DNA from: a virus | Virus record (IMG/VR): IMGVR_UViG_3300025086_000278 | Location: 1 to 22,314 of that record | DNA length: 22,314 nucleotides | Direction: 5' to 3' (one strand) | In this document: positions 5,834 to 21,316 of the stretch, one piece after another | How the letters are laid out: each line of letters opens with the position of its first letter | Position numbering within the stretch: the stretch's first letter is position 1 | Notes under the pieces: model-generated | Database searches by the model: none | Seen by the model: the letters and a program-made list of their open reading frames with translations, nothing else | What the model was told of the DNA's origin: nothing | Program-made: the position numbers and the translations under genes

Positions 5834-7572
5834 TGAAAAAAATAATTTTTATATGTTTACTTGTAATTTTTACGATACCTGTAGTTAATCAGTCAACAGT
5901 TTTAGATGTATTGAAACTAAAAACTTTTGATGCTTTTGTACCTAAACAACAACCTTCAGGGTATTTTACAATACTAAACATAACAGAAGAAGACATAACT
6001 AATGAAGGTGGCTACCCTTTATCAAGACAAACTTTAGCACAAATACAAATAAATCTTTTACGAAAAGGTGCTATAGGTGTGGGGTGGGTTGTTGCATTCC
6101 CTCAACCTGATCGATTTGGTGGCGACCTTGAGTTTACTGAAGCACTCTCATTCGCACCAAGTGTGTTAGCTATGTACGAAAACGACACCAATGAGTACCC
6201 AGCTACAACAGGCACAGTTATATTAGGCGAGGATGTTGGTGGCATCGAAGCTCAAGGAGTTGTACAAAATATAGACGTACTAAAGCATAATGCAAGTCAA
6301 GGATTAGCTGTTGCAAGAGCAGATGTAGACAGCTTAGTTCGTAGACTGCCTTTACTGTTGCGAACACCAGATGGTTGGGCACCAGCATATGGAACAGAGG
6401 TTCTTAAAATACTAGCAGGTGCTGATACATATGTTATAAAGACTAATCAAAACGGACTCGAAGAAATAAGAGTTAAAGGTTTGCCCCCTGTTCCTGTAGA
6501 TTCGCTAGGTCGTAAATGGGTAAGTTGGGTAGACACACCACAAACAAATTTAAAAGAAATGGATGTGGAAAATAAATTTGTGTTCGTAGGTTTTACAGCA
6601 AAAGGAATCATGCCACAGATTGCTACACCTGCTGGTTTACTAGAACCACATAAAATACAAACTGCACTCGCAGAGTCAATACTCATAGAAAATAGTCCAT
6701 ACATACCTGATTATGCTGTAGCTGTTGAACTTTTGATTTTATTCTCAACAGTTTTGTTAGTTTGGTCACTAATCACATATTTAGGTACAACTACAGGTGT
6801 TTTCGCAGCAGTTTTGATTATGGGCAGCACAGTTTTTTATGGCTACTGGACAATACAACAAAATATTTTAGTAGATGTTACATGGTCGTTGATAAGCCAG
6901 TTTGTAACAACAACTGTAGCTTTTTACTTGCGTTTTAGAGAGCAATACAAACTAAGACAACAGATAAAGAAACAGTTTGAACACTATCTTGATCCAAGAC
7001 AAATTAAAGAATTACAGAAAAATCCTGATTTATTACAGCTAGGTGGTGAAAAAAGATACTGTACGTTTTTATTCACAGATGTGCGTGGTTTTACAGCTAT
7101 GTCTGAAAAATTAGAACCAGAAGAAGTAACTAAAATTATGAATAAGGCTCTTACAATACAACAAGAAGCTGTTCAAAAATATGGTGGTATGGTCGACAAG
7201 TACATTGGTGACGCAATGATGGCTATTTTTAATGCACCCCTCGACTTAGAAGAACATGAGCATAAGGCTGTTCTTACAGCAATAGAGATACAGAAAAATA
7301 TTAAAGAAGCAGATATAGGTGTAGAGATTGGAGTTGGTGTAAACAGTGGTTACGCAGTTATAGGTAACATGGGAAGTGCTTCTAGGTTTGATTACACAGC
7401 TATAGGTGACGCTGTTAATACAGCAGCACGTTTTGAGAGTGCAACTAAACAAGTCGGTGTAGATTTAATTATAGGTGAAAGCACTAAACAAAACTGTAAA
7501 ATTAAGCTAAACTTATTAAACCCTATAGAAGTAAAAGGTAAAAGTAAGTCATTGGAGATATATACGCTATGA
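5833..7572 (+). CDS. CHASE2-domain class III adenylate cyclase
   Basis: This membrane-bound cyclase has 579 aa. An N-terminal membrane segment (IIFICLLVIFTIPVV) is followed by a CHASE2 periplasmic sensor domain to about residue 290, three membrane helices at about 294-315, 320-340 and 345-366, a linker (REQYKLRQQIKKQFEHYL), and the cyclase domain from about 405. Numbered from ATG 5833, the metal-binding Asp416 (FTDVRGFT) and Asp460 (KYIGDAMM), adenine-specifying Lys456 and Thr522 (DYTAIGDAVN), and transition-state Asn529 and Arg533 are all present. It should therefore make cAMP rather than cGMP. Known: CHASE2 senses envelope signals, and FecR proteins are common partners. The ATG overlaps the FecR stop; a TTG three bases upstream is not needed. 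Its TGA overlaps the holin ATG. A phage-encoded, apparently active, membrane cyclase is unusual. Confidence 0.93.
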   Translation: MKKIIFICLLVIFTIPVVNQSTVLDVLKLKTFDAFVPKQQPSGYFTILNITEEDITNEGGYPLSRQTLAQIQINLLRKGAIGVGWVVAFPQPDRFGGDLEFTEALSFAPSVLAMYENDTNEYPATTGTVILGEDVGGIEAQGVVQNIDVLKHNASQGLAVARADVDSLVRRLPLLLRTPDGWAPAYGTEVLKILAGADTYVIKTNQNGLEEIRVKGLPPVPVDSLGRKWVSWVDTPQTNLKEMDVENKFVFVGFTAKGIMPQIATPAGLLEPHKIQTALAESILIENSPYIPDYAVAVELLILFSTVLLVWSLITYLGTTTGVFAAVLIMGSTVFYGYWTIQQNILVDVTWSLISQFVTTTVAFYLRFREQYKLRQQIKKQFEHYLDPRQIKELQKNPDLLQLGGEKRYCTFLFTDVRGFTAMSEKLEPEEVTKIMNKALTIQQEAVQKYGGMVDKYIGDAMMAIFNAPLDLEEHEHKAVLTAIEIQKNIKEADIGVEIGVGVNSGYAVIGNMGSASRFDYTAIGDAVNTAARFESATKQVGVDLIIGESTKQNCKIKLNLLNPIEVKGKSKSLEIYTL

Positions 7573-8044: not shown

Positions 8045-8488
8045 ATGAAAATCTCACAAGAAGGTATAGCATTAATTAAAAAATTTGAGGGTTGTGAGTT
8101 AGACGCTTATCAAGACAGTGTAGGTGTGTGGACAATAGGTTATGGTCACACTAAAGAAGTCAAAGAAGGTGACAAAATAAACAAAGACGAAGCTGAACAT
8201 TTACTACAAGAAGAAATGTTAGAATACGAAGGATATATAGAAAATTTAGTTAAAGTTTCTCTAAGTCAATGCGAGTTTGACTCGTTATGCTCATGGGTGT
8301 ACAACCTCGGTCCAACAAATCTACAAGAATCTACTTTGTTACGAGTCCTTAATGAAGGTAAGTATGACGAAGTTCCTGCACAAATAAAACGATGGAATAA
8401 AGCTGGTGGTAAGGTTCTTGATGGGTTAGTTAGAAGAAGGGAAGCAGAAGCATTACTTTTTCAGGCTAAAGAATGGGAGAATGTGTAA
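8045..8488 (+). CDS. Endolysin, GH24 lysozyme (T4-type)
   Basis: The 147-aa protein is a phage lysozyme that cleaves the glycan strands of peptidoglycan. The E-D-T catalytic triad is visible: Glu15 (KKFEG), Asp24 (YQDSVG) and Thr30 (VWTIGYGHT), with the same 9- and 6-residue spacing as Glu11/Asp20/Thr26 in T4 lysozyme. The C-terminal RWNKAGGKVLDGLVRRREAE is the conserved family block. There is no signal peptide or SAR helix at the N-terminus, so it should depend on the holin encoded just upstream to reach the wall. Length is normal for the compact members of the family. The TAA stop overlaps the ATG of the next gene. Confidence 0.95.
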   Translation: MKISQEGIALIKKFEGCELDAYQDSVGVWTIGYGHTKEVKEGDKINKDEAEHLLQEEMLEYEGYIENLVKVSLSQCEFDSLCSWVYNLGPTNLQESTLLRVLNEGKYDEVPAQIKRWNKAGGKVLDGLVRRREAEALLFQAKEWENV

Positions 8489-10353
8489 TGCCATTAGCTA
8501 AGTTTGTACTAAAACCTGGAATAGATAGAGAAGGAACTTCTTATGATAGCGAAGGAGGCTGGTTCGACAGTAATCTTGTTAGGTTTAACAGAGGAAGACC
8601 ACAGAAAATAGGTGGCTGGCGTAAAGATAATGAGACTACCTTTAAAGGAACTTGTCGTGCATTACATGCTTGGGTAGAATTACAAGGAACAAAATATTTA
8701 GGTCTTGGTACAACAAGTAAGTATTATCTAGAAGAAGGTGGTACTACATATACAGATATAACACCTATCCGAGCAACTACAACGAATGGTATTACTTTTG
8801 CTGCAACGGATGGTTCATCAACAATTACAGCTACTGATTCAAACCATGGAGCAGTGGTAGGTGATTTTGTAACTATATCAGGAGCAGTTAGTTTAGGAGG
8901 AAATGTAACAGCAGCAGTTTTAAACCAAGAGTATGAAATAACACAAGTACCTTCTGTTAACACATACACATTCACAGCTGTAAACACTTCAGGAGTAACT
9001 GTAACTGCTAACGCAAGCGATAGTGGTAATGGTGGCTCAGGTGTCGATGGAGCATACCAAATAAACGTGGGTTTAGATGTATACGTGGCTAGCACAGGTT
9101 GGGGTGCAGGTACATGGGGAGCATCTACGTGGGGATCAACCTCAGCATTATCTGAAACAAATCAACTTAGATTGTGGAGTCATGATCATTTTGGTGAAGA
9201 CTTAGTTATGAATCCAAGAGCAGGAGGTATCTATTATTGGGATGAGAGTAGTGGTACAAGTAATCGAGCAGTTGTTTTGTCTGACATATCTGGTGCTAAC
9301 TTAGTTCCGACAAAAGGACTACAAGTAATCGTTTCTGAAAAAGATAGACATCTAATAGTATTAGGTGCTGATCCTATATCAGGAAGCAGTAGAAGTGGGT
9401 CAGTAGATCCCATGTTAATAGCTTTCAGCGACCAAGAAAATGCTTTAGATTTTGAACCTTTAACAACTAATACAGCAGGAAGTTTACGTCTATCAGAAGG
9501 TAGTCTTATTGTTGGTAGTATAAAAGCAAGACAAGAAATATTGATCTGGACTGATACGTCTTTGTACAGCATGCAGTTTATTGGACCACCTTACACATTT
9601 GGGTTAAATTTATTAAACAGTGGCTCAGGATTAGCTTCCCCAAATGCCTCAATCAATGTTGCACCTGGAGTGTTTTGGATGAGTTCTGATAATTTTTATC
9701 TGTATAATGGCAGTGTTCAAAAACTTCCTTGCTCTGTACATAGTTACGTGTTTGATGACATTAATTTAGGACAAATATATAAAGTCTTTGCATTCAGTAA
9801 TGCACAATTTGATGAAGTAGGTTGGTTTTATTGCTCTTCTAGCAGCACAGAAATAGATCGTTATGTGTGTTATGACTATGCTGATAATGTTTGGACATAT
9901 GGAAATTTAAGCAGAACAGCATGGTTAGACCAAGGAATTGTTAACTACCCAAGAGCAACAGCAAATAATTATTTATACCAACATGAGTTTGGGTACAACG
10001 ATGATGGTAGTCCTATGACAAATGTTTACATAGAAAGTGCAGACATAGACATAGGAGACGGCGAAGAGTTTGCATTTATAAGTAAACTAATCCCCGATGT
10101 ACGTTTTTTAAACAACAGCGAAACAGGTCAAGTTAATTTTGTTTTAAAAACAAGAGATTATCCAGGCGATTCGTTATCAACTAAAAGCACGGATGCACTT
10201 AGTAGCACAACACAGAAAAAGGATATGCGAGCAAGAGCAAGACAAGCAGTTATACGTTTTGAGTCTGACGACGATGATACAAATGCTAATAACGATGTAG
10301 GCTGGCGATTAGGTGCTACACGTTTAGAAATAAGAGGTGATGGCAGAAGATGA
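8488..10353 (+). CDS. Packaged-DNA stabilisation protein, P22 gp10-like
   Basis: The 621-aa product opens with KFVLKPGIDREGTSYDSEGG and FNRGRPQKIGGW, the hallmark start of marine-phage proteins annotated as P22 gp10-like tail accessory or stabilisation factors. Known role of gp10: it plugs the portal after packaging and joins head to tail. Residues about 95-175 contain an inserted Thr/Val-rich beta segment (GDFVTISGAVSLGGN) typical of these marine homologues. Later parts (DRHLIVLGADP, WTDTSLYSMQFIGPP) fit the beta-propeller-like body. It is longer than P22 gp10 (472 aa), as seen from memory in other marine members. I prefer ATG 8488 (TAATG overlap with the lysozyme stop) to an upstream in-frame ATG at 8473 that would lie within the lysozyme gene. 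Its stop overlaps the next ATG. Confidence 0.82.
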   Translation: MPLAKFVLKPGIDREGTSYDSEGGWFDSNLVRFNRGRPQKIGGWRKDNETTFKGTCRALHAWVELQGTKYLGLGTTSKYYLEEGGTTYTDITPIRATTTNGITFAATDGSSTITATDSNHGAVVGDFVTISGAVSLGGNVTAAVLNQEYEITQVPSVNTYTFTAVNTSGVTVTANASDSGNGGSGVDGAYQINVGLDVYVASTGWGAGTWGASTWGSTSALSETNQLRLWSHDHFGEDLVMNPRAGGIYYWDESSGTSNRAVVLSDISGANLVPTKGLQVIVSEKDRHLIVLGADPISGSSRSGSVDPMLIAFSDQENALDFEPLTTNTAGSLRLSEGSLIVGSIKARQEILIWTDTSLYSMQFIGPPYTFGLNLLNSGSGLASPNASINVAPGVFWMSSDNFYLYNGSVQKLPCSVHSYVFDDINLGQIYKVFAFSNAQFDEVGWFYCSSSSTEIDRYVCYDYADNVWTYGNLSRTAWLDQGIVNYPRATANNYLYQHEFGYNDDGSPMTNVYIESADIDIGDGEEFAFISKLIPDVRFLNNSETGQVNFVLKTRDYPGDSLSTKSTDALSSTTQKKDMRARARQAVIRFESDDDDTNANNDVGWRLGATRLEIRGDGRR

Positions 10354-10679
10354 GCAAACTTCTGACTTCTCGTCTTCCGTTAGCAGCAGGTTCAGAGATA
10401 ACTTCAGATATTTACAACAGATTAGTCCGTGTTCTTGAAATAAATCTAGGAGAGTTCGATCCTGACAACACTCGACAAATAAACACAACAGAAAGAGATA
10501 CATTATTTTTTAATCCAGGCACACTTATATGGAATACTTCAGTAGGTGTCTTACAAGTATACACTGGGGAATATTGGGTAGATTTAGGCACACCATCTAA
10601 TCCACAAGGCTATCAAGCTACTGCTGAAGTTGGTGCAGTATCAGTAAAAACCAACGGAAATATAACAATTACTTTATAA
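10350..10679 (+). CDS. Small putative virion protein (109 aa)
   Basis: The protein has a short N-terminal helix region (ITSDIYNRLVRVLEINLG) and then a compact beta motif FFNPGTLIWNTSVGVLQVYTGEYWVDLG, written here as its key pieces PGTLIWNTS and LQVYTGEYWVDLG. This motif is common in phage tail-fibre and neck-associated proteins (compare LWFNTTTNxLQVYNGTxW-type segments). Inference: a small structural or tail-attachment protein working with the stabilisation protein upstream, whose TGA overlaps its ATG. No catalytic residues or membrane segments are seen. Confidence 0.68.
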   Translation: MSKLLTSRLPLAAGSEITSDIYNRLVRVLEINLGEFDPDNTRQINTTERDTLFFNPGTLIWNTSVGVLQVYTGEYWVDLGTPSNPQGYQATAEVGAVSVKTNGNITITL

Positions 10680-10681
10680 CT

Positions 10682-11044
10682 ATGGAACCATTTTATTACA
10701 ATTGCACATTAGACAGAGTCATAGACGGAGATACGATAGATGTTAATATTGATTTAGGTTTTGATGTAATACTGTCTAAACAACGTGTTCGTTTAGCTGG
10801 TATAGATACTCCAGAATCTAGAACTAGAAACTTAGCAGAAAAAGCACTAGGATTAAAAGCAAAAGAAAGATTAATAGAACTATGTGGTAAAAAACTTCAA
10901 GTCAAGTCTTTAGGGAAGGGTAAGTATGGCAGGATTCTTGGCATACCTCACACGATAGACGGAGAAGATATCTGTGCTATGCTTATAGATGAAGGGCATG
11001 CCGTAGAATATTGGGGTGGTACTAAAGTTAAGGTCTGGGGATAA
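10682..11044 (+). CDS. Thermonuclease-like (SNase) nuclease
   Basis: The 120-aa protein is a compact staphylococcal-nuclease-type domain. Seen against SNase: Asp17 in IDGDT (SNase Asp21), Arg37 in RVRLAG (Arg35), Asp42 and Glu45 in GIDTPE (Asp40, Glu43) and Arg84 in YGRILG (Arg87). All metal-binding and catalytic residues are present, so it should be an active Ca-dependent nuclease cleaving DNA or RNA. There is no signal peptide, so it acts in the cytoplasm or is packaged. Possible roles are host DNA breakdown or attack on competing DNA; neither can be chosen from sequence. It is the last gene of the left operon and is followed within a few bases by a terminator. Confidence 0.92.
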   Translation: MEPFYYNCTLDRVIDGDTIDVNIDLGFDVILSKQRVRLAGIDTPESRTRNLAEKALGLKAKERLIELCGKKLQVKSLGKGKYGRILGIPHTIDGEDICAMLIDEGHAVEYWGGTKVKVWG

Positions 11045-11083
11045 AAAACGGAGTCCATAAATCGCTTCCACGGACTTTTTTTA
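11045..11083. terminator. Bidirectional rho-independent terminator between convergent genes
   Basis: A stem GAGTCC (11051-11056) pairs with GGACTT (11072-11077), with five Watson-Crick pairs plus one G-T pair and a 15-base loop. On the plus strand it runs into seven T (11076-11082). On the minus strand the flanking A6 at 11043-11048 becomes a U6 tail. It therefore ends the left operon after the nuclease gene and can also stop transcription from the minus-strand protease gene. The stem is short, so strength is uncertain. Confidence 0.72.
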
Positions 11084-11093
11084 TACTGACTAA

Positions 11094-11106
11094 GGGTAAA
11101 CTACCC
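11094..11106. other. Short perfect hairpin after the protease stop
   Basis: GGGTA-AAC-TACCC is a perfect 5-bp stem with a 3-base loop, starting three bases beyond the stop codon of the minus-strand protease gene. It has no T tail of its own and is followed on the minus strand by the bidirectional terminator. It may protect the 3' end of the transcript or pause RNA polymerase; it may also be chance. Confidence 0.4.
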
Positions 11107-11108
11107 CT

Positions 11109-11843
11109 CTAACAGGAGTCTTTTGCTATAAGTCTACCTGTTTTAATCAGGTACTTTATATCCCCAACTGTTAAGTCTTGTACATTTTCTATTAGATACT
11201 TAGCTTTTACAGAACTAAAACGACCTAACTCAGTGTGTCCTTTTACATCTTGTACCACATCTTGTATCTCACGTAAAATCCATTCGACTCTAGTAGTCTT
11301 GCCTTTTGTGTAATATGTACTAGATCTGCCCATGGGTACACGCACTGAAGTGTTTTCTAAAAAATCGTAGTCTTTAGGTTTTTTAGCATTAGTTAGTGTA
11401 ATTTTTATACGCTTACATTTTTTCTCGTACTTGCTGTCTTGTAAAGATTTAAAGTCTATGTTACGCTCTCGCAACGATGCACTTAGTTCTTTATATGTAG
11501 GTTTATCTGGGTGAAAGTTTTTAAGTAAAGCACAGAAAGTTGTTACAAAAACTGGTCCATGTTTACACTCATCTGCTAACAGATGAGCATACTCGTGAAG
11601 TACAACAGACCAGCATCTTGCCCAAGATCTAGGCAGAGTAATAATGTTGCCCCAAGCTTGAGCTGTTGCATTTTGATGTCTCCTGTTGCTGAACCTAACA
11701 GTGGTTGGCTTACGTTTTAATTTAGTATCTAATTGTTTGATTATATGTAAAACTTGAGTGTCGTCTAGTTCGTTTTTACTCTTACCACTCCAACTTGCTG
11801 CGTTTTCCCAAGCATACACTTTAGATCTTTGTTTATCTCTCAT
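11109..11843 (-). CDS. HExxH metalloprotease, TIGR04338/SprT-like
   Basis: The only minus-strand gene. The 244-aa product carries a zinc protease signature: VVLHEYAHLLA gives His83, Glu84 and His87, and HGPVF gives His95 as the likely third ligand, the HExxH...HG..F spacing of SprT-like and related phage peptidases. The N-terminus MRDKQRSKVYAWENA resembles, from memory, the TIGR04338 family of phage and actinobacterial metallopeptidase-like proteins. The C-terminal half is Lys/Arg-rich and not recognised; it may bind DNA or a partner. There is no signal peptide, so it is cytoplasmic. The start ATG has AAGGA seven bases upstream (minus strand, in 11851-11857) and its own promoter candidate. 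Separate, opposite transcription suggests a different timing, perhaps early; targets could be host or virion proteins. Confidence 0.8.
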   Translation of the reverse strand: MRDKQRSKVYAWENAASWSGKSKNELDDTQVLHIIKQLDTKLKRKPTTVRFSNRRHQNATAQAWGNIITLPRSWARCWSVVLHEYAHLLADECKHGPVFVTTFCALLKNFHPDKPTYKELSASLRERNIDFKSLQDSKYEKKCKRIKITLTNAKKPKDYDFLENTSVRVPMGRSSTYYTKGKTTRVEWILREIQDVVQDVKGHTELGRFSSVKAKYLIENVQDLTVGDIKYLIKTGRLIAKDSC

Positions 11844-11852
11844 AATATTTTC

Positions 11853-11899
11853 CTTTCTTGTTTCTTAATACACTTATCATACTTTATTGTACAAGAAAG
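11853..11899. repeat. 9-bp inverted repeat flanking the minus-strand promoter
   Basis: CTTTCTTGT (11853-11861) and ACAAGAAAG (11891-11899) are perfect reverse complements separated by 29 bases. One arm overlaps the ribosome binding site of the protease gene; the other overlaps its -35 candidate. The layout would suit an operator for a dimeric regulator or an mRNA structure, but only sequence symmetry supports it. Confidence 0.45.
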
Positions 11900-11903
11900 T
11901 AAA
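11876..11903 (-). promoter_or_regulatory. Sigma70-type promoter candidate for the protease gene
   Basis: Read on the minus strand, TTTACT (11903-11898; 4 of 6 to TTGACA) and TATGAT (11881-11876; 5 of 6 to TATAAT) are separated by 16 bases. Transcription would begin near 11869, leaving a leader of about 26 bases with the AAGGA ribosome binding site. It is the only non-coding region upstream of this gene. Confidence 0.55.
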
Positions 11904-11929
11904 GGAGTTTTTTATTTCAATGTTTTTTA

Positions 11930-11958
11930 TTTATTATTCTGGAGTTTTTAAGTATGAT
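11930..11958 (+). promoter_or_regulatory. Promoter candidate for the right-hand virion operon
   Basis: TATGAT at 11953-11958 (5 of 6 to the sigma70 -10) is followed by AAG and lies 17 bases after a weak -35-like TTTATT at 11930-11935 (3 of 6). Transcription would start near 11965, about 75 bases before the first gene. Because the -10 block is identical to that of the divergent protease promoter, a phage-specific recognition element is an alternative. No other non-coding space large enough for a promoter exists in the right half. Confidence 0.45.
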
Positions 11959-12039
11959 AAGAGTACAGTATATTACTGCAGCTTTTCAGGTACAGCAAAT
12001 AGCCTGCTCAAAATAACTAACATATAAGTGGAGAATAAT

Positions 12040-12144
12040 ATGCCTGGAATGAGAAGTAGAAGAGAAACGATTAGAGCAGGAAAAGACTGGTCTAAAGGTC
12101 AATACGCAGAAGACAAAAAGAACAAAAAATCTAAGAAAAAATAA
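12040..12144 (+). CDS. Very basic 34-aa protein at operon start
   Basis: The ORF begins with ATG at 12040, preceded by TGGAG six bases upstream, a good ribosome binding site, and ends in a TAA that overlaps the next ATG. The product starts MPGMRSRRETIRAGKDW and ends KKNKKSKKK, with about half of its residues charged. It could be a nucleic-acid-binding peptide, a virion DNA-condensing peptide or a leader for translational coupling. No family is recognised. The strong ribosome binding site and coupled stop are the main support. Confidence 0.6.
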   Translation: MPGMRSRRETIRAGKDWSKGQYAEDKKNKKSKKK

Positions 12145-13688
12145 TGCAGAACACTGCCCCAAGACAAGGGATTGCAGGTGCTGCTGAATATCTCGCTGCT
12201 CAAGGTCGTAATGGCGACACAATGCTGTCGCATTTAACAGCTGGCGAAACGATTATTCCTCAAGAGATTCTAGACAAGAATCCTAATTTACGAAAAGATT
12301 TACAAAACGCTTTCGATTATGAAGACGTACCTATGGATCAATATGTTGTTGGTTCTGGTGTCATGTCTATCAACCCTGAAACAGGATTACCTGAGTTTGG
12401 TTGGTTAAGTAAATCTTGGAAAAGTGTAAGAAAAACAGTTAAAAAAGCTGGTCCAGTTATAGGTGCTATAGTAGGTGGCATGATTGGTGGTCCAGTAGGT
12501 GCTTCTATAGGTGCAGGAATAGGAACTAAAACTTCTGCTATGCCTAAAGAAGACATACTAAGAAACATGGCTATCGCTTATGGTGGTGCTAACGTGTTAC
12601 AAGGGGCAGGTGTTGGCAATGCAGCAAGTGCTGCAAAAACTGCTGCAAGTTCTGCTGGTGGATGGAGTAATCCGTTTGCTGCAGCATGGGATGGTGTAGG
12701 TGCGTTTTTTAGTGGCACTAATTGGACTCCTATGGGTGTTGGTGAAACATCTGGTGTCGGTGGATTTTTCCAAGACATCGGTGGTGGTTTTAGTCGAAGC
12801 ATGGGGTTTGGTGGTACAGGAACATTAGTTGATGCAGGACTAACCAGTGCTCAAGCAGCAGACGTATCAGCATTAATGCAAGGTGGTATGGACGCAGTAA
12901 CTGCTGCACAACAGATAGGTATAACAGATCCAACAGTACTAAGAACACTAGGAACTAATGCTTTCGGTCCAGGAGTATTATCTGCTGGTGGTTCTGCGTA
13001 TGCTAGTTTAAATCCATTAGAACAATGGGCTGTGCAAACAGGATTTGATGTCGCAACAGGAATAGCACAAGAACAAGGTGGTATGGGTGGACCAATGGGA
13101 GCAGGTGCTGCAGCTTACATGGGCAGAGGTTTAACTTCTGGTGGAGCGATACCTATGCAAAATATTCAAGGAAGTAATGTTGGTATAGCTGGTATGCAAC
13201 CTATGGGAAACAACATAAATGCTCGTTCATTTCAACAAGGTGTAAACGCTCCTACAAACACAACCATAACAGACAATCGAGCAGGTAATACAGCTATGCT
13301 ACCTCAAAATGGCTCGCCTTACGATTCTGCGATAGCTCAAACAACAAAAGGTAACGAAATGTTAGATCTACTAGCAGGAACTCTTGCTAGACGTCCATTG
13401 CCTGAAACACCTGGATTAGCTAGTTTAACTACACCTTTCCCAACATTTGAACAACCAGCTTATGCAGCAGCAAATGGTGGTTTTATAGGTTCTGATAGAG
13501 GTATGTTTATGGGTGGCGGATATGTACAAGGTCCAGGCGGAGAAAAAGATGACATGGTTAACGCAAAACTTTCTAATAACGAATTCGTAATGACTGCAGA
13601 TGCTGTTCGTGGTGCAGGTAACGGCAGTATTAAACAAGGTGCAGAAAAAATGTATGAAATGATGAATAATTTTGAGAGGAGAGCCTAA
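12144..13688 (+). CDS. Putative internal virion protein, Gly/Ala-rich (514 aa)
   Basis: The protein has three parts. The N-terminus contains LSHLTAGETIIPQEILDKNP. A glycine-zipper membrane-active segment follows at about residues 104-128 (VIGAIVGGMIGGPVGASIGA), then a long Gly/Ala/Met-rich middle. The C-terminus (GPGGEKDDMVNAKLSNNEF, then VMTADAVRGAG) matches, from memory, a terminal motif shared by many marine podophage and cyanophage virion proteins. The TAGETIIP and LSNNEFVM segments look like two copies of the same short fold. Inference: an internal or ejected protein that helps DNA cross the envelope, given the zipper helix. It is coupled to the preceding small gene and to the next gene by overlapping stop and start codons. 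Confidence 0.7.
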   Translation: MQNTAPRQGIAGAAEYLAAQGRNGDTMLSHLTAGETIIPQEILDKNPNLRKDLQNAFDYEDVPMDQYVVGSGVMSINPETGLPEFGWLSKSWKSVRKTVKKAGPVIGAIVGGMIGGPVGASIGAGIGTKTSAMPKEDILRNMAIAYGGANVLQGAGVGNAASAAKTAASSAGGWSNPFAAAWDGVGAFFSGTNWTPMGVGETSGVGGFFQDIGGGFSRSMGFGGTGTLVDAGLTSAQAADVSALMQGGMDAVTAAQQIGITDPTVLRTLGTNAFGPGVLSAGGSAYASLNPLEQWAVQTGFDVATGIAQEQGGMGGPMGAGAAAYMGRGLTSGGAIPMQNIQGSNVGIAGMQPMGNNINARSFQQGVNAPTNTTITDNRAGNTAMLPQNGSPYDSAIAQTTKGNEMLDLLAGTLARRPLPETPGLASLTTPFPTFEQPAYAAANGGFIGSDRGMFMGGGYVQGPGGEKDDMVNAKLSNNEFVMTADAVRGAGNGSIKQGAEKMYEMMNNFERRA

Positions 13689-20381: not shown

Positions 20382-21316
20382 TGTCACGAATTAATTTTGG
20401 AACAATGGGTTTTAATAACCAACAGTATGGTGATTATGAAGATCTTCAACAAATGCCTGCATATACACCTCCTCCTCCTAAGTATAACACAGGTATAGAA
20501 ACTCTTGTTAATACATATTCTCCTCCTACAGATATACAAGCTCAAGCTGCAGAACAAAGAACAAGAGCAAGTCAAGTAAGTACTCCTGCTCAAAATTTAG
20601 CCAACCAACAGGCAAACGCTTTTAATCAATTATTGGTAAATGCTGGTGTAATCGCACCACCAGATGACGATGATAATGTTACAGATCCACCACCAGATGA
20701 CGATGATAATGTTACAGATCCACCACCAGATGACGATGATAATGTTACAGGTCCACCACCAGGTGGAGGTTTTACAAATTGGTGGGAACCATTTGGCTAC
20801 GCAAACGAACAAGAAGCTATAGCTTCAGGACTTTTTGAATTTAACTCAGATTTAGGTATCTGGATAATGACACCTCCTGAGGTTGTTGGAACATCGACAC
20901 TTGGCATGAGTTCTGAAGATGAAAGAGCAATAGGTATGGCAGATGAAGAAGCTGCAGAAAATCAACCTGTTGACACAGGAAACAGTTTAATTTCTGGTGG
21001 TGTCATACCTATGGATCCACCCCCAGTTGTGACAGAACCTGATCCAGTAGTTGATACACCAGTAACATACAAGTCTGTACCTGATCCTATATTAGATCAA
21101 GTAAACACACTGAGTTTGACAAATCCATATGTAACACCATTTCAAATAGAAGAACAATTTGTTTCTACACCTGAAGTACAAACACTAAACTTACCTATGG
21201 TTAATCCTCAAGGATTAGAAACCCTTGTACCGCAAAACAGTATGCCTGTGTTTGATACACAGATTCCTACAACTTTTGCAGCTAGAGACCCTATGTTAAA
21301 CACACGAGAAAGATAA
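20381..21316 (+). CDS. Pro/Asp-rich protein with tandem repeat linker (311 aa)
   Basis: Low-complexity protein with no recognised family. The N-terminus is Gln/Pro-rich (MPAYTPPPPKYN). Residues about 92-127 hold three copies of PPPDDDDNVTD, an extended acidic, proline-bounded linker. A small ordered region follows (GFTNWWEPFGYANEQEAIAS, then LGIWIMTPPE). The rest is again Pro/Val/Thr-rich with PPPVVTEPDPVVDTP. There is no signal peptide. The D-x-D-x-D-like acid runs could bind divalent metal, but this is inference. It lies between virion genes and is coupled to both neighbours, so a structural or assembly role is likeliest. Confidence 0.68.
   Translation: MSRINFGTMGFNNQQYGDYEDLQQMPAYTPPPPKYNTGIETLVNTYSPPTDIQAQAAEQRTRASQVSTPAQNLANQQANAFNQLLVNAGVIAPPDDDDNVTDPPPDDDDNVTDPPPDDDDNVTGPPPGGGFTNWWEPFGYANEQEAIASGLFEFNSDLGIWIMTPPEVVGTSTLGMSSEDERAIGMADEEAAENQPVDTGNSLISGGVIPMDPPPVVTEPDPVVDTPVTYKSVPDPILDQVNTLSLTNPYVTPFQIEEQFVSTPEVQTLNLPMVNPQGLETLVPQNSMPVFDTQIPTTFAARDPMLNTRER
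20655..20763 (+). repeat. 33-bp tandem repeat, about 3.3 copies
   Basis: The unit encodes PPPDDDDNVTD and repeats exactly every 33 bases (for example the CAGATGACGATGATAATG core at 20661, 20694 and 20727). The three copies are identical in DNA apart from one base near the end of the third (ACAGGT for ACAGAT) and a truncated fourth start. The near-perfect DNA identity, including synonymous positions, indicates recent duplication and possible copy-number change. Confidence 0.93.

Follow-up and report, generated by a model that had tools for sequence, protein, structure and literature searches.

Two probably independent transcription units, one with a candidate structured leader RNA, meet at a divergent junction in an uncultivated marine phage group

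A perfect 12-bp inverted repeat between two divergently oriented genes raises the question of whether the repeat is a functional element in its own right or a by-product of the two transcription units that meet there. The window, that is, the whole stretch of DNA analyzed here, is a linear 22,314-base (22.3-kb) IMG/VR fragment from the late region of a phage genome. Its source is a lytic-type marine tailed phage, distantly related to the Pelagibacter phages HTVC023P and HTVC027P and to phage DSL-LC04; the named relatives of its structural protein include phage DSL-LC04 (43% identity), roseophages and the two Pelagibacter phages. In this window, AAGTATGATAAG occurs once per strand, facing outward, at 11873-11884 (−) and 11950-11961 (+), both copies contain TATGAT, and NGTA comes next in each (TGTA on the left and AGTA on the right), exactly as a sequence-only reading had described. 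The main features of the locus are listed in Table 1. Elsewhere in the window, CsgG-like lipoprotein, curlin-repeat-like, FecR-like and CHASE2/adenylate-cyclase-like proteins were recognized by eye from their translations in one phage operon (3278-7572), and 33-bp tandem repeats at 20664-20812 encode a DPPPDDDDNVT repeat in a protein of the virion operon.

Table 1. Positions of genes, promoter elements and leader RNA elements in the window
Feature	Position	Strand	Basis
Podovirus-type stabilisation/structural protein	8473-10353	rightward	
Nuclease	10682-11044	rightward	
Terminator-like hairpin and T-run, 3′ end of the HExxH gene	11052-11076	−	consensus scan, sequence
HExxH-motif gene, 244 aa, zincin-like, weakly SprT-like, behind the left promoter	11109-11843	−	open reading frame
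Left promoter −10, TATGAT, inside the left 12-mer arm	11876-11881	−	sequence and YATSAT family core
Left promoter TCCTTTACTTT block	11896-11906	−	recurs before many genes in the early region of relatives
Left promoter −35, TTTACT, 16-bp spacer to −10	11898-11903	−	inside TCCTTTACTTT block
Right promoter ATTTATTATTC block	11929-11939	+	kept in most relatives, whether or not the left gene is present
Right promoter weak −35, TTTATT, 17-bp spacer	11930-11935	+	inside ATTTATTATTC block
Right promoter −10, TATGAT, inside the right 12-mer arm	11953-11958	+	TAT(G/C)AT ahead of 14/14 distinct leaders
Predicted virion-operon transcription start, 7 nt past −10	11965	+	inferred from −10
Hairpin P0, CAGU-AUAUU-ACUG, 4 bp	11966-11978	+	14/14 distinct sequences pair
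H-type pseudoknot	11981-12006	+	comparative, covariation
Pseudoknot helix S1, one U-C mismatch in the window	11981-11985/11992-11996	+	compensatory changes at pairs 4 and 5
Pseudoknot helix S2	11987-11991/12002-12006	+	compensatory change at pair 5
A-rich loop 3 of the pseudoknot	11997-12001	+	
Shine-Dalgarno GGAG of the 34-aa ORF	12030-12033	+	sequence
34-aa lysine-rich ORF (MPGMRSRRETIRAGKDWSKG...), opens the right operon	12040-12144	+	sequence
514-aa virion protein, tape-measure-like, starts the internal-virion operon	12144-13688	+	C-terminus matches tape-measure PHROGs

The AAGTATGATAAG pair is the sole perfect inverted repeat of at least 11 bp spanning no more than 90 bp in the window, and the record of 22,314 bases has no further match with zero or one mismatch. 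Of the whole-window dinucleotide shuffles (n = 300), 11% contained one or more perfect 12-bp inverted repeats of this span (mean, 0.12), a share that fell to 0.27% when the shuffles were confined to the 198-bp intergenic region; the repeat is therefore locally unusual, yet not unlikely at the size of the window, and the earlier statement that a stretch this long would rarely contain one by chance was too strong. Furthermore, the two arms cannot be treated as independent random sequence, because both overlie −10 elements. The perfect repeat is limited to the near-identical contigs of the window's lineage, and elsewhere just the −10 core (TATGAT) is retained: the left arm reads GAGTATGATGAG, TAGTATGATATG, TTATATGATATG and other variants in more distant relatives, the right arm remains AAGTATGATAA(G/A/C) within the window's clade, and the arm-to-arm spacing ranges from 50 to 72 bp across all relatives. 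A search before other operons of the genome and of related phages did not find the exact 12-mer. We attribute the repeat to the fact that both −10 elements bear the favoured AGTATGATA core, with flanks that coincide in this lineage. On this reading the 12-bp repeat is not itself the functional unit; the region is an ordinary divergent junction at which the −10 repeat happens to be perfect. An invertible promoter was also considered and rejected, the orientation being the same in all related loci read.

The leftward promoter belongs to a recurrent class. On the − strand (11876-11906) it combines the TCCTTTACT block with a TTTACT-to-YATSAT distance of the 16-17 bp that define the early class, and a generic consensus scan also detects it (TTTACT/TATGAT, 9/12). 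In G001 (IMGVR_UViG_3300030104_000782), a relative of 62,424 bp (62 kb), the full pattern, CCTTTACT followed by 13-19 bases and YATSAT, occurs 10 times versus a mean of 0.03 in shuffles, an enrichment that is observed directly. The block is present in up to 7 copies in partial relatives and in one copy in the window, and the 38 distinct instances, which were gathered using the YATSAT pattern itself, have spacers of 16 or 17 only. The G001 promoters of this class precede small early-region genes with a AAGAAAGGAG translation signal in their leaders, and in at least three G001 units the promoter directly follows a terminator, GGCTCCTTCGGGAGCC...TTTTTTT. Accordingly, the proposal of a phage-specific promoter element holds in part: both copies of the 12-mer resemble outward −10 elements and a group-specific promoter family exists, but the 12-mer is not what is shared. 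The class can be compared with T4 middle promoters, in which a MotA box, (a/t)(a/t)(a/t)TGCTTtA, is centred at −30 (PMC2988021); both are repeated before many pre-late genes and combine a good −10 with one extended −35/−30 block (TCCTTTACTTT here), whereas the block here holds a usable −35 (TTTACT, 16-17 bp spacer). G001 encodes a sigma-70 region-4-like protein (Pfam PF04545) that could read the TCCTTTACTTT block, which we mention as a lead only. The predicted proteins of G001 showed no evident RNA polymerase, and HTVC027P is without an RNA polymerase of its own (PMC12753301).

Several further arrangements were seen around promoters of this class. G001 10081-12988 (−) carries serial small early genes, each made up of a terminator (GGCTCCTTCGGGAGCC-T7), a TCCTTTACTTT promoter and a short ORF, resembling a row of exchangeable cassettes, and a second divergent CCTTTACT/TATGAT promoter pair lies at G001 30012-30301, between the helicase operon and replication-side genes. 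Dyads in the left-promoter spacer differ by clade (ACTTTnTTGTACAAnAAAGT at 11887-11906 of the window, TTTACTTTTAAAGTAAA in contigs L315 and L280) and may form a repressor site of the HExxH cassette; the TTGTACAA palindrome in the left spacer was dismissed as an operator, as it is not retained outside the window's clade.

The gene behind the left promoter had been called a protease. Its HEYAH...HG motif is invariant in six relatives; the best Pfam match of the window protein is SprT-like (PF10263), at 13.8 bits, below the gathering cut-off of 25.6 bits, and the best of six family members matches PF10263 with E = 0.0035. 'Protease' is therefore plausible, not established; solved structures searched with this family yielded nothing relevant. 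As judged from sequence, this single gene, flanked by its own promoter and its own terminator, is a self-contained moron-like cassette, and it is variably present between kept flanks, being absent in contigs L347/L361 and L365/L366. It shares with lambdoid moron cassettes a position on the reverse strand of a late region, a promoter and a terminator that serve one gene only, and a patchy occurrence among close relatives; it differs from them in that it sits in a lytic-looking marine phage fragment and that its promoter is the early one of the phage group itself. In four contigs (L312, L315, L316 and L321), an extra ORF separates the HExxH gene from this left promoter.

The right promoter is of a different kind. 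The early-class TCCTTTACT block is not found upstream of its −10, where ATTTATTATTC stands instead, so that the −35-region motifs of the two promoters differ. The generic consensus scan misses the right promoter, and the number of sites that it reports in the region is near chance. Natural deletions observed in two lineages (four contigs) separate the two sides: L365/L366 have lost the left −10 along with the HExxH gene but keep a TCCTTTACTTT remnant of the left −35, and L347/L361 lack the nuclease as well as the HExxH gene and its promoter, with the right promoter and the sequence after it intact in both cases. The right promoter is therefore independent of the left one. The region of the 34-aa ORF is kept in close relatives, as judged with a query whose frame was one base off. 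Two other conserved sequences were encountered. An exact 15-mer, TTTTTAAAGTATGAT, lies between the terminase and portal genes in G001 (~7303-7317, −) and in four other relatives (G009, G010, G011 and G012); it resembles the right −10 region and was rejected as the same element since it is without the leader described below, and it is possibly a second late promoter. CTTTACcATAGCAAGAGTTTAGTATTATGAT is conserved upstream of the small terminase gene (G001 9531-9843 and relatives) and is likely the promoter of the packaging operon.

These comparisons bear on two other explanations of the paired arms. A single regulator or phage sigma-like factor binding both arms, as a switch that selects either the HExxH gene or the virion operon, would account for their identity (12/12 in the window, 11/12 in L014, a separate lineage), and within-lineage arm identity does exceed the permuted value (9.08 versus 7.82 of 12; exact p = 0.017, 5 clades); however, the 12-mer window was picked post hoc, extending it to −3..+16 abolishes the signal (p = 0.18), and the −10 itself accounts for most of the identity. 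An inverted-repeat operator would be expected to keep both arms and their spacing together, and this conservation is not seen. Considering that the left arm varies, that the −35 motifs differ, that the spacing ranges over 50-72 bp and that the right arm is present where the left one has been deleted, the shared operator put forward earlier is unsupported, and we consider it unlikely; the clade-level co-evolution of the arms (p = 0.017) is a weak, post hoc and unexplained hint that independent promoters do not predict. At the other extreme, the repeat could be a coincidence in AT-rich intergenic DNA with neither 12-mer belonging to a promoter, in keeping with the frequency of such repeats in whole-window shuffles (11%) and with the near-chance number of sigma-70 consensus matches in the region. 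This is very improbable, as the two sides are conserved separately in relatives, each together with a block of its own upstream, and the block on the left recurs as a family positioned before genes. We therefore prefer, with a probability of about 0.75, to read the region as the junction of two independent transcription units, an early-class cassette promoter on the left and a virion-operon promoter with a structured leader on the right.

The structured leader was recognized directly past the right promoter. Its hairpin begins 7-12 nt past the −10 in all relatives and is therefore near +1. All 14 distinct sequences share the consensus CAGU-N5/6-ACUG (or a C-G/U-G variant) followed by GCUUU.CAGGU..AAGC-AAUA-ACCUG, and pair 4 of P0 changes from U-A to C-G and U-G among them. 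In alignment A5, 94.3% of cells conform to the pairing, four pairs are changed on both sides, and the observed covariation score is 0.166 versus 0.105 ± 0.012 when shuffled (0/500); sliding the pairing partners lowers the pairing to 21-55%. Two interleaved helices are maintained by covariation, which by comparison alone indicates an H-type pseudoknot. The window's leader was not stabler than shuffles in a nested minimum-energy fold (z = 0.27), and its S1 carries the U-C mismatch that characterises the window's clade, so the case for the leader rests on comparison. The strict pseudoknot pattern retrieved 27 stretches from 2.9 million viral contigs, all from this phage group, each with one copy and the same promoter ahead, and a covariance model found the leader once each in the window and in two ~61-kb relatives. 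Looser leader and hairpin patterns gave mostly chance matches in viral_contigs and were set aside. In the stretches read of four cultured, distant relatives (HTVC023P, HTVC027P, 023Pt_psg01 and DSL-LC04) the leader had no match, and there is a gap before the corresponding operon. Rfam returned nothing for the window at E up to 1 or for 11940-12060 at E up to 10, and two PYLIS_3 matches in relatives were below the gathering score. Neither a glutamine riboswitch (downstream-peptide/glnA), suspected from the short ORF, nor a preQ1-I riboswitch was supported by Rfam. Taken together, the leader is probably a real and undescribed structured RNA of the virion operon.

Whether the block after the right promoter acts as RNA can be questioned, because P0 alone forms a dyad, CAGT-N5-ACTG, at the +1 position of a classical operator, and CTGCAGC is invariant. 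Nevertheless, the loop length differs by one base, which would shift the half-sites, and two further interleaved helices covary; G-U pairs in P0, S1 and S2, together with the variable loop sizes, argue for RNA over a DNA dyad, and a DNA operator in place of an RNA structure seems improbable. We give a similarly low standing to put-like antitermination, in which the nascent leader RNA would modify host RNA polymerase on the virion operon. The extreme 5′ position of the leader, directly past the promoter like putL of HK022 (PMC9378689), and the length of the downstream operon are in its favour; however, put RNA is ~70 nt long with two stem-loops, whereas the leader is ~42 nt with a hairpin and a pseudoknot and occurs once per genome, and the word pseudoknot is absent from that account (PMC9378689). 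As described, the two have in common that a structured RNA immediately follows a phage promoter. On balance, we favour an undescribed cis-acting RNA of these uncultivated marine phages, a 5′-terminal hairpin plus H-type pseudoknot in the first ~42 nt of the internal-virion transcript, that would regulate the operon.

Regulatory pseudoknots in DNA-phage mRNAs are, to our knowledge, rare. The preQ1 class I riboswitch is a compact H-type pseudoknot with an A-rich loop 3, as is the leader, but the latter has no Rfam match at E up to 10. The T4-type gene 32 mRNA, also from a dsDNA phage, likewise carries an H-type pseudoknot in its 5′ leader (PMC3014915), and a 2010 review regarded the T4-type gene 32 leader as possibly the only viral pseudoknot in translational autoregulation (PMC3014915); compared by description, the leader here differs in lying on an internal virion operon with a 5′-terminal hairpin ahead of it.

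In the map that we propose, a sigma-70-type recurrent early-gene promoter (TCCTTTACTTT-N13-14-YATSATA) would drive the single reverse-strand HExxH gene leftward, and this transcript would end at its own terminator, the whole forming a variably present moron-like cassette. In the rightward direction, a different promoter, with a weak −35 and TATGAT, would start the internal-virion operon, whose transcript would begin, at about +1 to +3, with the conserved hairpin followed by the H-type pseudoknot. From sequence we infer that both promoters are active, that they use the host RNA polymerase and that they fire early and late, respectively; the leader may control virion mRNA stability or translation, antitermination, or the departure of polymerase from the promoter. 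In place of an attractive but misleading inverted-repeat pattern, this uncultivated marine phage group now has a transcription map that can be tested: an early promoter class with a defined pattern, a gene cassette that can be lost, and a virion operon headed by a conserved structured leader.
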